Virus record (IMG/VR): IMGVR_UViG_3300021373_001379
Location: 1-39,377 of that record
Origin: a virus
Direction: 5' to 3' (one strand)
Length of the DNA stretch: 39,377 nt
Shown: in pieces, positions 18,499 to 39,377 of the stretch
Position numbering within the stretch: position 1 is the stretch's first letter
How the letters are laid out: each line of letters opens with the position of its first letter
The notes under the pieces: model-generated
What the model was told of the DNA's origin: nothing
Database searches by the model: none
Seen by the model: only the letters and a program-made list of their open reading frames with translations
Made by a program: the position numbers and the translations under genes

Positions 18499-18524
18499 GA
18501 TATAATATAATATAATTGTTAAAT

Positions 18525-21251: not shown

Positions 21252-21283
21252 AATATAATATAATTAAATAATTAAAAGTTTTT

Positions 21284-35080: not shown

Positions 35081-37510
35081 TTATGATATTCTAATTTGTA
35101 CTACACTTCCATTTCTATATAATTCTCCTAATTCTACACCTCCAGCTGCTGCCGCTACATCATCCGCGTAACTCGTAGAGCTTCGCAGTACTTCCATTAT
35201 AATAGCACCACCTTCTTTTACCGCTATTGGAGTTTGAGTAGTTGTTGGAGTTCCAGTAGTTCCACTACCAGATCCAACCGCAAATACAGTACCTCCTGAA
35301 AGAGTAGCGTTATATTGACCAACTAAAACTGTAACTTGACCTTGCGCTAAAGCAGTCAAACCTTCACCGATTAATAATTTTTTAGCAAAGCTAGCTCCAT
35401 CATTATAAGCACCAACTGCAAAAGAATTTGCGCCTATATTAGAGTTATTATTTCCTGCTACTATTGAATTATTACCAGCTACAGTATTGTTAAAGCCAGT
35501 CGCAAAAGTAGAAGTACCACTTACGGTATTACTACTACCTGACGCAAGAGCTCTATTACCACTAACTATGTTAGCTTGTCCAAAACTAGCGGCGTTCTGA
35601 CCTGTAACATTTAAAGCGTTTCCATAAGCAAAAGCCGTGGTTCCATTTAAACTTGGGTTAGCTGTAGAATTTAAACCACCTGCAAAAGCTAAACTTGTCG
35701 CCGCAGTAGTTCCGTTACCTATAGCAAAACAATTTGACCCAGATGCTATAGTGTTTTGACCAAACGCAGCAGATCTAGATCCTGATGCAGTTGTGCCTTC
35801 GTTAAATGAAGCTGCATGTAAACCAGATGCTGTAGTTTGAAAACCTGTTGAAAGTGAAGATGCGCCTGATGAAGTTGTTTCGTACCCAATAGCTACTGAA
35901 TTTCTTATTCCACTAGCAACAGAACCACCTCCAAATTTTAAACTATAAGGATTAGCGGCTCCAGGAGAAACTTCTGTCATTATTAAAGTAGAATCACCTA
36001 TTACTCTATTAGCGCCATCTGTCCAAAATGTTAAAGTGTAATCAGTTCCAGCTACAGCTGAAGTTACATTTGTACTTGGGTTTTCACCTACTTTAATCTC
36101 ACCATCATTTCCTATCAATAAATACTTTTCTACAGAAAACGAACCATTGTCTTTCCAAAGTTCTGTTAAATGTACTTTGTTTGAAGCTGGTATTCTTATT
36201 GCTTCTGCACTAGCGGTTGGCGTTATTGATGGATTAGCTACTTCACCTTCAGCTGCTGCTAAACCAATAACAAGACCTTCGCTTCCTGTAACAGGGCCAG
36301 CACTACCTGTATTGAATCTTATAGTTGCATAAGGTGACTCTGTGCGAGCAGTAGCTCCAAGTGTTAAATAACTAGCTTGAGTTGTATCAATTAAAACACC
36401 GCCTCCAGTACCGGGTTTTACAGTAAGTTTTTGAGTTGGGGTGGTAGTTCCTATACCTATAAAATCACTTGGATCGTGATATATAATACTGTCACCAAGA
36501 ACTTGGCTATCTGTCCATTTAGGAATATAGTTAGTTATACCTGTCCCTTCTACGTTGTCACTTTCTATTGTAGACCAGTCGTTAACTGTTGAACTATCAG
36601 CCGCAGCATCAGCAACAGCTATAATAGAATCACCAACATTAAGTAAATCACCTGAGCAATAAAATTGACCACCTGTGTTTGCCACGATGTAGTAATCGCC
36701 AGTTATAACAGATACTCTTGTACCAGCACCACCTGGGCAATTGTAGAGATAAGATCCAGTGTTTATACCTGAAAGTATTTCGCCAGTATCAGCTCTAAAG
36801 GAACCTCTAAAAGATAAACCACCAGAAACTAAACTGTCAACATATGCTTTAGTAGCTGCGTCTTGAGCTTGAACAGGGTTTAAAAGATTTATAATATTGC
36901 CATTTAAAGTCATGTCAATATTATCTTCCATTGTTAATACACCACCAACGGTAGCACCTCCATCTACTTGAAGTGATGTCAATGTGTTAAGAGTAGAAGG
37001 TGTTGATCCTGTTACTACTAAATGATCTGTTACAGTTAATTTACCGTTATGTGTTGTGTTACCGTTTACTGTCAATGTGTTAGTTGTACCAAAAGGCGTA
37101 GCTCCTAGTAGTCTTACATTGCCATTTGAAATAAAAAAATCTTCAACAGTTAAACCAATGTCCATTGTTACATTGCTGTCGAAGTTTGCTGTCCCTACAA
37201 CTTGCATAGTACCTGGAACTACAAGTGTACTTGGTAAACTTACTGTCAATGTTTGTGCTGAAGCTACAGTGTCAATCTGATTTGCTGTGCCTGAAAGCGT
37301 AAGATTTTGTGTATCTAAGTTTACAATACCTGTGCCAGTGTCTCCTAAGAAGTTTAAGTTTACACGCGCTGTCACATACGATGCTAAATCGTCTGCAGTA
37401 AGGCTTTTAGTTAAAAACCCGTTGTCTGCTGTAGTATCTGACACGCTTATTACTAGTGTATCTGAGTTATTTACCGTGCTTACGTACGGGTATGAATAAA
37501 TAATAGCCAT
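35081..37510 (-). CDS. Tail fibre/spike with YadA-head-like repeats (809 aa)
   Basis: The N-terminal region is beta-rich and Thr/Asn-rich with repeated TLTVNGNTTHNGKLTVTDHL-like units. NPVQAQDAATKAYVDSLVSG (about 205-225) is a common phage tail-fibre signature. Residues about 525-705 contain many copies of an A(S/A)FG/AxGxxNxxSG pattern (for example SVAIGYETTSSGASSLSTGF, AASFGQANIVSGNRALASGS), as in the head domain of trimeric adhesin YadA, which forms a beta-roll. The product is probably a trimeric receptor-binding fibre. It is the first gene of the leftward block, a few tens of bases below the divergent region. No chaperone domain is visible at the C-terminus. Confidence 0.82.
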   Translation of the reverse strand: MAIIYSYPYVSTVNNSDTLVISVSDTTADNGFLTKSLTADDLASYVTARVNLNFLGDTGTGIVNLDTQNLTLSGTANQIDTVASAQTLTVSLPSTLVVPGTMQVVGTANFDSNVTMDIGLTVEDFFISNGNVRLLGATPFGTTNTLTVNGNTTHNGKLTVTDHLVVTGSTPSTLNTLTSLQVDGGATVGGVLTMEDNIDMTLNGNIINLLNPVQAQDAATKAYVDSLVSGGLSFRGSFRADTGEILSGINTGSYLYNCPGGAGTRVSVITGDYYIVANTGGQFYCSGDLLNVGDSIIAVADAAADSSTVNDWSTIESDNVEGTGITNYIPKWTDSQVLGDSIIYHDPSDFIGIGTTTPTQKLTVKPGTGGGVLIDTTQASYLTLGATARTESPYATIRFNTGSAGPVTGSEGLVIGLAAAEGEVANPSITPTASAEAIRIPASNKVHLTELWKDNGSFSVEKYLLIGNDGEIKVGENPSTNVTSAVAGTDYTLTFWTDGANRVIGDSTLIMTEVSPGAANPYSLKFGGGSVASGIRNSVAIGYETTSSGASSLSTGFQTTASGLHAASFNEGTTASGSRSAAFGQNTIASGSNCFAIGNGTTAATSLAFAGGLNSTANPSLNGTTAFAYGNALNVTGQNAASFGQANIVSGNRALASGSSNTVSGTSTFATGFNNTVAGNNSIVAGNNNSNIGANSFAVGAYNDGASFAKKLLIGEGLTALAQGQVTVLVGQYNATLSGGTVFAVGSGSGTTGTPTTTQTPIAVKEGGAIIMEVLRSSTSYADDVAAAAGGVELGELYRNGSVVQIRIS

Positions 37511-37576
37511 ATACTTATTTTTAAAATTCGTTTATAATATATATACTTACAGATTTCACTAGTTTTTTACCTAAGG

Positions 37577-37621
37577 GTGACATAAGCCTGTTACTAATAC
37601 TACTTATAAGGCTAGTGTCAC
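37577..37621. other. 13-bp imperfect inverted repeat in the divergent region
   Basis: GTGACATAAGCCT (37577-37589) and AGGCTAGTGTCAC (37609-37621) pair over 13 positions with one G-T and one mismatch, with a 19-nt loop. No T-run follows on either strand, so it is not a simple terminator; an operator or structured DNA/RNA element is possible. Confidence 0.55.
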
Positions 37622-37782
37622 AAAAAAGTTGTTAGAAATATAGGAGTATAGTGTTACCCCCTATCGTACTGATTATCAACGTTTTACAAAAACGATTTTA
37701 GTTTTACGGGCCCCACCTATTTTCCCAGATTTTTACGTATATATCCTTGATTTTCAGTATATTACGCCCTACCTTTTGACTT

Positions 37783-37815
37783 TTTACAGAGAAACTACTA
37801 ACTAACCTGGATAAT
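37783..37815 (+). promoter_or_regulatory. Repeated promoter-like element, copy 1
   Basis: TTTACA, 21 nt, GATAAT (preceded by CTG). It lies 23 nt before the ATG of a 26-aa ORF. Same spacing and similar internal bases as the four other copies. Confidence 0.65.
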
Positions 37816-37838
37816 ATATATGTAATCACTTAAACAAT

Positions 37839-37919
37839 ATGACTATGCACTATCTAACTATGTTCACAACCGATCAACTAATCAATATGTACAATACTGT
37901 AAGTAATAATACTAAATAA
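37839..37919 (+). CDS. Possible tiny protein (26 aa)
   Basis: ATG preceded by ACAAT, reading MTMHYLTMFTTDQLINMYNT and six further residues. The support is positional: it follows copy 1 of the promoter-like element and is succeeded at once by copy 2. It is too short to judge by composition. Confidence 0.4.
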   Translation: MTMHYLTMFTTDQLINMYNTVSNNTK

Positions 37920-37952
37920 TTTACAGATAAAACACTAATGAATCTGGATAAT
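37920..37952 (+). promoter_or_regulatory. Repeated promoter-like element, copy 2
   Basis: TTTACA, 21 nt, GATAAT, beginning directly after the preceding tiny ORF's stop codon. It shares TTTACAGA-AAAA-AC-AAT-AAT-TGGATAATAAT with copy 3. 16 nt before the next ATG. Confidence 0.68.
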
Positions 37953-37968
37953 AATATCAAATAACAAT

Positions 37969-38205
37969 ATGAATTACAATACTTTACAATCACTAATCCC
38001 AAATGATGAAATACATTACATTGATGACTGTGACCAGTTCTTCGCTGATAACAACCTAGATCAATCTAGCTTTTCAGATCATACATTTATACTGTTTGAA
38101 TACACTATCGAATGCCTGCCTGAAACTATCTCAGCTCTTACAGCTAACAACATTAAATTCACTCAACTAACTGACGAATTTGACTTAGACTATATAATTA
38201 TATAA
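37969..38205 (+). CDS. Small acidic protein of unknown function (78 aa)
   Basis: An acidic protein (IHYIDDCDQFFADNNLDQSS, ending DEFDLDYIII) with few basic residues. Its charge resembles DNA-mimic or early host-takeover proteins, but this is only an impression. It has its own promoter-like element 16 nt upstream, and a third copy starts 7 nt after its stop. No homologue recognised. Confidence 0.68.
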   Translation: MNYNTLQSLIPNDEIHYIDDCDQFFADNNLDQSSFSDHTFILFEYTIECLPETISALTANNIKFTQLTDEFDLDYIII

Positions 38206-38211
38206 ATAATT

Positions 38212-38244
38212 TTTACAGACAAAATACAAATCAATATGGATAAT
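38212..38244 (+). promoter_or_regulatory. Repeated promoter-like element, copy 3
   Basis: TTTACA, 21 nt, GATAAT, 30 nt before the ATG of a 43-aa gene. It matches copy 2 at about three quarters of the positions across 37 nt. Confidence 0.68.
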
Positions 38245-38274
38245 AATAATGTAACTAATTTAAATAATAACAAT

Positions 38275-38406
38275 ATGAACTTAATACAATACATTGACTT
38301 CACTTCACTATGCGAAGATTACAATTTAACAACTGGCGACATTACACCAATGCAAACATTTGAAATTGAATATGTATTGAAGCAATTTATAAAACAAAAT
38401 AAATAA
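38275..38406 (+). CDS. Small conserved marine-phage protein (43 aa)
   Basis: MNLIQYIDFTSLCEDYNLTT, then GDITPMQTFEIEYVLKQFIK and the end QNK. The pattern SLCEDYNLxTGDI...EIxxxLxxFIKQNK matches a small protein often seen in marine phages, which makes this the best supported of the tiny plus-strand genes. Function unknown. Confidence 0.75.
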   Translation: MNLIQYIDFTSLCEDYNLTTGDITPMQTFEIEYVLKQFIKQNK

Positions 38407-38468
38407 TTCACACAATGAAGTCAAGTGTTATACTTCTAACTAATTTTTAAATACTAAACAAATATACA

Positions 38469-38501
38469 CTTACAAACTAATTACAAACTAAACTGGATAA
38501 T
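38469..38501 (+). promoter_or_regulatory. Repeated promoter-like element, copy 4
   Basis: CTTACA, 21 nt, GATAAT (in ACTGGATAATATAATAAAC). It lies 36 nt before the ATG of the 76-aa gene, within a 131-nt gap that otherwise holds only AT-rich sequence. Confidence 0.65.
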
Positions 38502-38537
38502 ATAATAAACAAATACTAATACTTAAATATAATAACT

Positions 38538-38768
38538 ATGCAAAATTCAATTCAATCAAAAAGATTTGTCATTCGCAAATCACTAATCGGTCAAAACTCT
38601 ATCATTGAAGTTACTTTCAAAAGTGGCAAAACATTCAAATACAATCATGATAAAGCTTTTGAACTAATGAAAGACAATTTAACTAAACTAAATTGCTGGG
38701 AAAAATATAAGTCATACACTTCTTCGACTTCAATTCCTAAAGTTCTACAAAATGTTGAAGTTATTTAA
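38538..38768 (+). CDS. Small basic protein of unknown function (76 aa)
   Basis: Begins MQNSIQSKRFVIRKSLIGQN; beta-like front (IIEVTFKSGKTFKYNHDKAF) then a helix. Basic, with no known domain. The preceding copy of the promoter-like element and a clean ATG after TATAATAACT support it. Confidence 0.68.
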   Translation: MQNSIQSKRFVIRKSLIGQNSIIEVTFKSGKTFKYNHDKAFELMKDNLTKLNCWEKYKSYTSSTSIPKVLQNVEVI

Positions 38769-38953
38769 TTAACTTCTTCATTTGAACTCACTGGCGCGTT
38801 CCGACTAGTACCATCACCAGTCTAAATAATGTTGAACTAGCACTAACAGTCGCAATGGTTTCAAGTGACAACGATAGTACGAATAACAACTCTATCACTT
38901 GTACAAGTTCAATTCTTGTAGCGACTACTACTAACTTTTTAAAATATATAACT
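38769..38953 (+). other. 185-nt gap with palindromes
   Basis: Higher GC than the surroundings at the left part (CTGGCGCGTTCCGACTAGTA). It contains CAAGTGA...CTATCACTTG arms of a bulged hairpin and a perfect 12-bp palindrome ACTTGTACAAGT at 38897-38908. No copy of the repeated promoter-like element. An ORF frame open from 38855 is judged non-coding until the ATG at 38954. Confidence 0.5.
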
Positions 38954-39073
38954 ATGGCTACATACTCTTACACACTACTGAAAATAAGCTGGAGAATGTT
39001 CAACAAACATTTTACTAAACTAACTAAAGATCAACAAGAAAAAGTAATACAACGATACTATGACTACTACTAA
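38954..39073 (+). CDS. Small basic protein (39 aa)
   Basis: MATYSYTLLKISWRMFNKHF, a helical, basic protein ending RYYDYY. The longer frame from 38855 would add 33 Ser/Thr/Asn-rich residues that look like translated non-coding DNA, so this ATG, after AAAATATATAACT, is preferred. The next ORF begins inside its last codons. Confidence 0.6.
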   Translation: MATYSYTLLKISWRMFNKHFTKLTKDQQEKVIQRYYDYY

Positions 39074-39200
39074 AATCTTTAACGAACTACAATTGATAAA
39101 TGAGTTTGAAGCAAACTTCAATATCACTCCACAGTCTAAAGCTAGACGTGAAGAACTTACAAACAAATTACAACAACTAATGGATAATAATATAAAATAA
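39060..39200 (+). CDS. Small helical protein (46 aa) overlapping its neighbour
   Basis: MTTTKIFNELQLINEFEANF, then TPQSKARREELTNKLQQLMD and the end NNIK. Charged helix with no known domain. It overlaps the 39-aa gene by 14 nt in another frame. Copy 5 of the promoter-like element lies inside its last codons (NKLQQLMDNNIK), an unusual overlap of coding and control sequence. Confidence 0.6.
   Translation: MTTTKIFNELQLINEFEANFNITPQSKARREELTNKLQQLMDNNIK
39156..39188 (+). promoter_or_regulatory. Repeated promoter-like element, copy 5 (inside a coding end)
   Basis: CTTACA, 21 nt, GATAAT. It is within the 3' end of the 46-aa gene and 14 nt before the ATG of the membrane protein gene that follows. 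Confidence 0.6.
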
Positions 39201-39202
39201 TT

Positions 39203-39337
39203 ATGCGAAAATTCAATCACTACACAATTCTAAAACTAGTCGTTTATGGCTATATAACCTTAGCATCACTTGGCATCATTGGCTTAATTATCAATTTTGC
39301 ACAAGGTGATTTAAACGCTGACTTTGGAATGTTTTAA
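39203..39337 (+). CDS. Small single-pass membrane protein (44 aa)
   Basis: A hydrophobic segment (LVVYGYITLASLGIIGLIIN, about 12-31) flanked by basic N-terminal residues (MRKFNHYTILK) and an acidic C-terminus predicts one membrane helix with the N-terminus inside. No homologue recognised. The gene follows promoter-like copy 5 by 14 nt. Early-expressed membrane peptides of phages often act on the host envelope; this is not shown here. Confidence 0.65.
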   Translation: MRKFNHYTILKLVVYGYITLASLGIIGLIINFAQGDLNADFGMF

Positions 39338-39348
39338 AATAACTAACT

Positions 39349-39377
39349 ATGCAATACAGAAATATACCTTACGACTA
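39349..39377 (+). CDS. Start of another small gene cut by the right edge
   Basis: An ATG after AACTAACT opens MQYRNIPYD and is still open at the window end, 11 nt after the membrane protein stop. Too little sequence to judge. Confidence 0.35.

Follow-up and report, generated by a model that had tools for sequence, protein, structure and literature searches.

Five short repeats near the right end of a 39,377-nt phage fragment (the window) are, judged from the sequence comparisons described here, almost certainly phage-specific early promoters, and we infer early expression of the genes downstream of them. As the most direct explanation, the first-pass annotation named a family of early promoters specific to the phage or to a sigma factor, and the related phages support this proposal. 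In the relatives, 161 of 161 sites lie on one strand before early genes; the element keeps a constant register over 35 bp, the base at the expected +1 is always a purine, and there is little conservation beyond it. The element is absent from host genomes, and the relatives encode a sigma factor in the same arm.

Genome context and the five elements

The best explanation for the source of the window is a ~60–70 kb podovirus-like phage of marine Bacteroidota. The 39-kb fragment has a leftward arm encoding the portal, the terminase large subunit, GroEL, a GroES-like protein, and virion genes, and a rightward arm of tiny genes that starts at ~37.8 kb and continues past the contig end. The terminase shares 63% identity with that of the uncultured podovirus MW202828 (Podoviridae sp. 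ctfjg026) and 46% with those of the Flavobacterium elemo phages, and is also related to that of Cellulophaga phi38:1. Pervagoviridae (phi38:1), Elemovirus, and MW202828 have homologous terminases and portals and a similar two-arm genome plan, but they lack the GATAAT motif and a close relative of the sigma factor encoded by the window's clade. No DNA similarity was found between the early region of the window and cultured phages.

All five elements are located in the last 1.6 kb of the window, in the rightward arm. As annotated, the pattern YTTACA-N21-GATAAT has exactly five exact copies in the window, all on the plus strand and none on the minus strand. Each of the five GATAAT boxes follows a TG, and a search with TTACA-N19-TGGATAAT likewise gives five exact matches. 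The elements and the small early genes that they are predicted to serve are as follows.

37783..37822, + strand: predicted early promoter 1 (TTTACA...TGGATAAT); GATAAT at 37810, predicted +1 G37822; before a 26-aa ORF at 37839
37920..37959, + strand: predicted early promoter 2; GATAAT at 37947, predicted +1 A37959; before a 78-aa ORF at 37969
37969..38205, + strand: small early ORF, 78 aa, putatively served by promoter 2
38212..38251, + strand: predicted early promoter 3; GATAAT at 38239, predicted +1 G38251; before a 43-aa ORF at 38275
38469..38508, + strand: predicted early promoter 4; GATAAT at 38496, predicted +1 A38508; before a 76-aa ORF at 38538
38538..38768, + strand: small early gene (76-aa ORF), putatively served by promoter 4; family present in 18 of 22 related records, at times in more than one copy
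39156..39195, + strand: predicted early promoter 5; GATAAT at 39183, predicted +1 A39195; before a 44-aa ORF at 39203
39203..39337, + strand: small early ORF, 44 aa, putatively served by promoter 5

The end of GATAAT lies 23, 16, 30, 36, and 14 nt before the next usable ATG, in agreement with the annotated range of 14–36 nt, and the predicted leaders are short, at about 8–30 nt. There is overlap between promoter 5 and the 3′ end of the tiny ORF upstream of it (39060–39200).

The region is 69% A+T, and loose matches to the pattern are common (28 at two or fewer mismatches), as might be expected if the repeats were due to chance or were a decayed repeat private to this contig. This explanation is virtually impossible. 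It is refuted by 5000 order-2 shuffles of 37511–39377, in which the pattern matched 0.003 times on average and once at most, and by the recurrence of the element in many related contigs that are independent of one another. The 21-nt spacers had been described as related to one another; this holds, and the relatives refine it by revealing a conserved second block, TAAATACGA, in fixed register.

Conservation and anatomy of the element

A weight-matrix search of related phages, which the first-pass annotation had recommended, was performed with a matrix built from the window and contig G006, and further copies were found in related contigs, in a variant that disclosed the general form TAAATACGA-N9-GATAATATAATAAA. 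Related contigs have up to 14 copies each, on the early-gene strand. The logo of 113 sites gave a full element of TTACAAAnTAAATACGA-N9-GATAATATAA, spanning ~35 bp with fixed spacing. Positions −25 to −15 were conserved, although the search pattern left them unconstrained for most sites. After rescoring, the PWM scan yielded 161 sites in 21 genomes, each genome carrying its sites on one strand only, and the PWM threshold was never reached in order-2 Markov sequences. At loci selected by the sigma factor, 349 sites lay on the sigma strand and 2 on the opposite strand. The same motif ranked first in a de novo dyad search (44/204; null maximum of 12). Among 48 records chosen by the motif alone, 46 carry the terminase family of the window (71–89% identity). 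The sites in these records lie on one strand within each record, and the reversed control pattern gave none.

As in a sigma70-type promoter, the element has two parts at constant spacing, on the same strand as the gene that follows. GATAAT would correspond to a −10 box at −12 to −7, and the block TTACAAAnTAAATACGA, at about −38 to −22, to an upstream recognition element. A purine occupies position 12, counted from the G of GATAAT, at 160 of 160 sites, and transcription would start at this purine, ~7 nt after the −10 hexamer, as in sigma70-type promoters. The predicted "−35" region is a 16-base block rather than a hexamer; it exceeds the usual −35 box and may contain an activator site. The base immediately before GATAAT (−13) is constant within many genomes and differs between genomes (MI z = 25).

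The elements sit just before the start codons of tiny genes, a placement that would also suit leader-RNA or translation elements copied before small genes. A repeated leader RNA, the alternative raised in the first-pass annotation, fails because the conserved bases sit upstream of the predicted start. In the logo, conservation fades once the predicted +1 is passed and is slight over the transcribed part. Furthermore, the distance from the element to the ATG varies widely, and the upstream block and GATAAT keep a fixed, promoter-like register. We therefore consider leader elements highly improbable, and we favor promoters because the invariant purine puts +1 where a sigma70-type −10 box would put it.

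In the mapped genomes, the sites are distributed over the first several kb of the early arm, from its very start, and precede ligase, HTH, sigma, ERF, exonuclease, and primase genes. Six of the 161 sites overlap an upstream ORF. A literature search, mostly outside subscription journals, found no description of this motif or clade.

Host-type promoters in the clade, its sister group, and hosts

The sigma-A promoter consensus of Bacteroidota is TTTG / TAnnTTTG (PMC6847099). Consistent with the first-pass annotation, these elements are absent from all five sites in the window. For comparison, we selected a sister group by its MW202828-type exonuclease and counted promoters over non-redundant upstream regions. 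In the sister group, TTG-N17–23-TAnnTTTG was seen 49 times versus 2.7 expected, while GATAAT elements numbered 0. Conversely, the sigma-bearing clade showed 1 host-type promoter versus 3.8 expected and 89 GATAAT elements versus 0.3 expected. The same trend was apparent genome by genome when MW202828, elemo, phi38:1, and Gundel_1 were compared with the clade. Thus, the promoter type of the likely hosts is used by the sister phages and shows no excess in the window's clade. Neither the sigma nor the motif was detected in the sister loci (0/80 for each). The motif was less frequent than its reversed control in 299 Flavobacteriaceae genomes, with the exception of one phage-looking contig.

That contig, L373 (PANU01000065.1, from a Flavobacteriaceae MAG), carries four copies and provided the only strict motif match among the bacterial genomes. 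It is most likely a co-binned phage and offers a hint at the host. Separately, many early genes of the sister group (L091, L450–L529) are preceded by perfect 16-bp palindromes, GTGTCGTTAACGACAC or GTGTCTTTAAAGACAC.

A sigma factor gene in the early arm

The first-pass annotation had also advised looking for a sigma-like gene elsewhere in the genome. The window ends before the relevant region, and such a gene was found in the relatives: those whose contig reaches the replication module encode a sigma factor of ~250 aa. It is present in 35 of the 48 motif-chosen records, and nearly all of the remaining 13 end within a few kb downstream of the last listed promoter. The genome G046, whose terminase is 89% identical to that of the window, contains both the sigma and the motif, and the window's own copy would lie beyond its contig end. 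The gene is located in the early arm, a few kb downstream of the promoters, and adjoins a conserved helix-turn-helix gene.

Within the family, Sigma70_r2 was detected by Pfam in 24 of 27 members and Sigma70_r4 in 16 of 27; the promoter-bearing relatives thus encode a sigma factor with regions 2 and 4. The protein matched a PHROG sigma factor at 2e-25, and its best PDB match was FliA, aligned over regions 2–4 and most of its length. A structure model (pLDDT 77) also gave sigma factors as the top fold matches. Region 2.4 reads RIKGAI, as in FliA of 1rp3, and the start of region 3 reads RIPEH, like the housekeeping sigmas. No close relative of this sigma was found in cultured phages.

The neighboring HTH protein (~206 aa, with a C-terminal helix-turn-helix) lies close upstream of the sigma in 15 genomes (L274:6116–6751, − strand, and homologues), and no convincing structural relative was found for it in the PDB. 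G043 contains two copies of the HTH–sigma gene pair (L234:3078–4447 and L237:4292–5661).

Candidate readers of the early promoters

It is reasonably likely, from gene content and motif distribution, that the early promoters are read by this phage sigma. The reader would be host core RNA polymerase equipped with the ~250-aa sigma that the phage itself encodes on the early arm, and the clade has given up the host signal TTTG/TAnnTTTG, which the sister group still uses. The sigma and the motif co-occur across the clade, which may reflect a single evolutionary event.

A genome-specific −13 base would be expected of a co-evolving phage factor. However, the residues of sigma regions 2.4–3.0 showed no covariation with this base above control genes: nearly identical 2.4–3.0 regions go with G or C at −13, and no column stands out. 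The −13 base does not follow the sigma residues; therefore, the base is set either by a different protein or by a determinant dispersed over the sigma. The first round of transcription also counts against this reading: the gene for the sigma is itself downstream of the promoters, and we found no host-type promoter to start it; none occurs at a consistent position before the sigma operon. A sigma or equivalent specificity factor carried in the virion, with even the first early transcripts ignoring host sigma-A and the entire genome using a private promoter language that is species-specific at −13, is unlikely.

The sigma could serve late promoters instead, since a separate single element, GTAAA-N14-TGTAAGTATATA, is present on the late side.

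37535..37571, − strand: divergent late-side element, GTAAA-N14-TGTAAGTATATA / TTGTAAA-N14-CTGTAAGTATATA; before the structural ORF 35081–37510

This element is conserved at about one per related genome (also in the L293–L372 loci) and is probably a late promoter or activator site. In the corresponding scheme, host RNA polymerase with sigma-A would transcribe the early genes together with a phage activator bound to the TTACAAAnTAAATACGA block, as with MotA/AsiA at T4 middle promoters, and the phage sigma would be late-only. We regard this scheme as unlikely. It would account for the long upstream block, placed where an activator could bind, for a −13 base that does not track the sigma, for the conserved HTH protein adjoining the sigma gene, and for the distinct late-side element. 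It also agrees with what phage sigma factors usually do: those of phiEco32 and 7-11, for example, act on middle or late genes (PMC8948821). Nevertheless, Bacteroidota sigma-A recognizes TAnnTTTG, which is absent here, and not TATAAT-like boxes (PMC6847099). The activator itself would first have to be made or injected, and no MotA-like or AsiA-like protein was identified.

An RNA polymerase of the phage's own, virion-carried or early (crAss-like, N4-like, or tail-tape-fused type), is very unlikely to read the elements. A reader is needed for the early genes as soon as the DNA has been injected, the virion RNA polymerases known so far are giant proteins, and the relatives have giant virion genes of 2300–3860 aa. 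Yet the geometry from −10 to +1 and the ~35-bp span are of the sigma type. A virion RNA polymerase within the giant structural proteins was considered and rejected: no catalytic DxDxD triplet is conserved in them, and searches of Pfam, PHROGs, and the PDB gave no RNA polymerase match.

Comparison with known systems

The proposed recognition by the phage sigma resembles that in phiEco32 and 7-11, where a phage sigma redirects host core polymerase to a non-host promoter consensus, as it would do here. In those phages, host sigma70 is used for the early genes and the phage sigma for middle or late ones (PMC8948821). In contrast, the present motif occurs in the early arm, and neither arm has host-type promoters. 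In addition, the phiEco32 sigma has no homology to region 4, and what it recognizes is one short element.

Sigma28 (FliA) promoters have the form TAAAGTTT-n11-GCCGATAA, with GCCGATAA as the −10 element (PMC2859248). GATAA at −10 is common to these promoters and the phage element, and the sigmas share RIKGAI in region 2.4. However, neither the sequence nor the spacing of the upstream block agrees, and the phage −13 base varies by genome. The TAAA −35 octamer 11 nt before GCCGATAA was not found, and we do not class the element as a sigma28 promoter, because its upstream element is not shared with FliA promoters.

T4 middle promoters, which depend on sigma appropriation by MotA/AsiA, likewise combine an upstream block with a −10 box on phage genes (PMC6755090). 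They differ from the present case, in which the phage encodes a sigma factor and no MotA or AsiA relative was found.

To our knowledge, few phage promoters are known for Bacteroidota, bacteria with an unusual promoter signal for their housekeeping sigma. The analysis yields a precise promoter consensus, predicted start sites, and a candidate sigma for a widespread marine phage clade. With the sister group on the host signal, a switch of promoter language in phage evolution becomes directly testable. It also raises the question of how infection starts when the genome seems to be without a host-type promoter. If confirmed, the sigma and the promoter would constitute an orthogonal expression pair for Bacteroidota.

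Other elements on the structural strand

Two further patterns on the structural strand, GATTGTGTAAT and TTATATAT, are conserved at single orthologous places and were rejected as a multi-copy family. A home-made EM motif search of this strand returned compositional motifs only. A 22-nt leader, ATAATTnTATnATATTATATY, abuts the ATG of two structural genes in the window (18499–18520 and 21252–21273, both − strand). It is absent from MW202828, where TAnnTTTG stands instead. The leader occurs in nearly all clade genomes, and all 39 ATG-adjoining matches fall at those two gene families.
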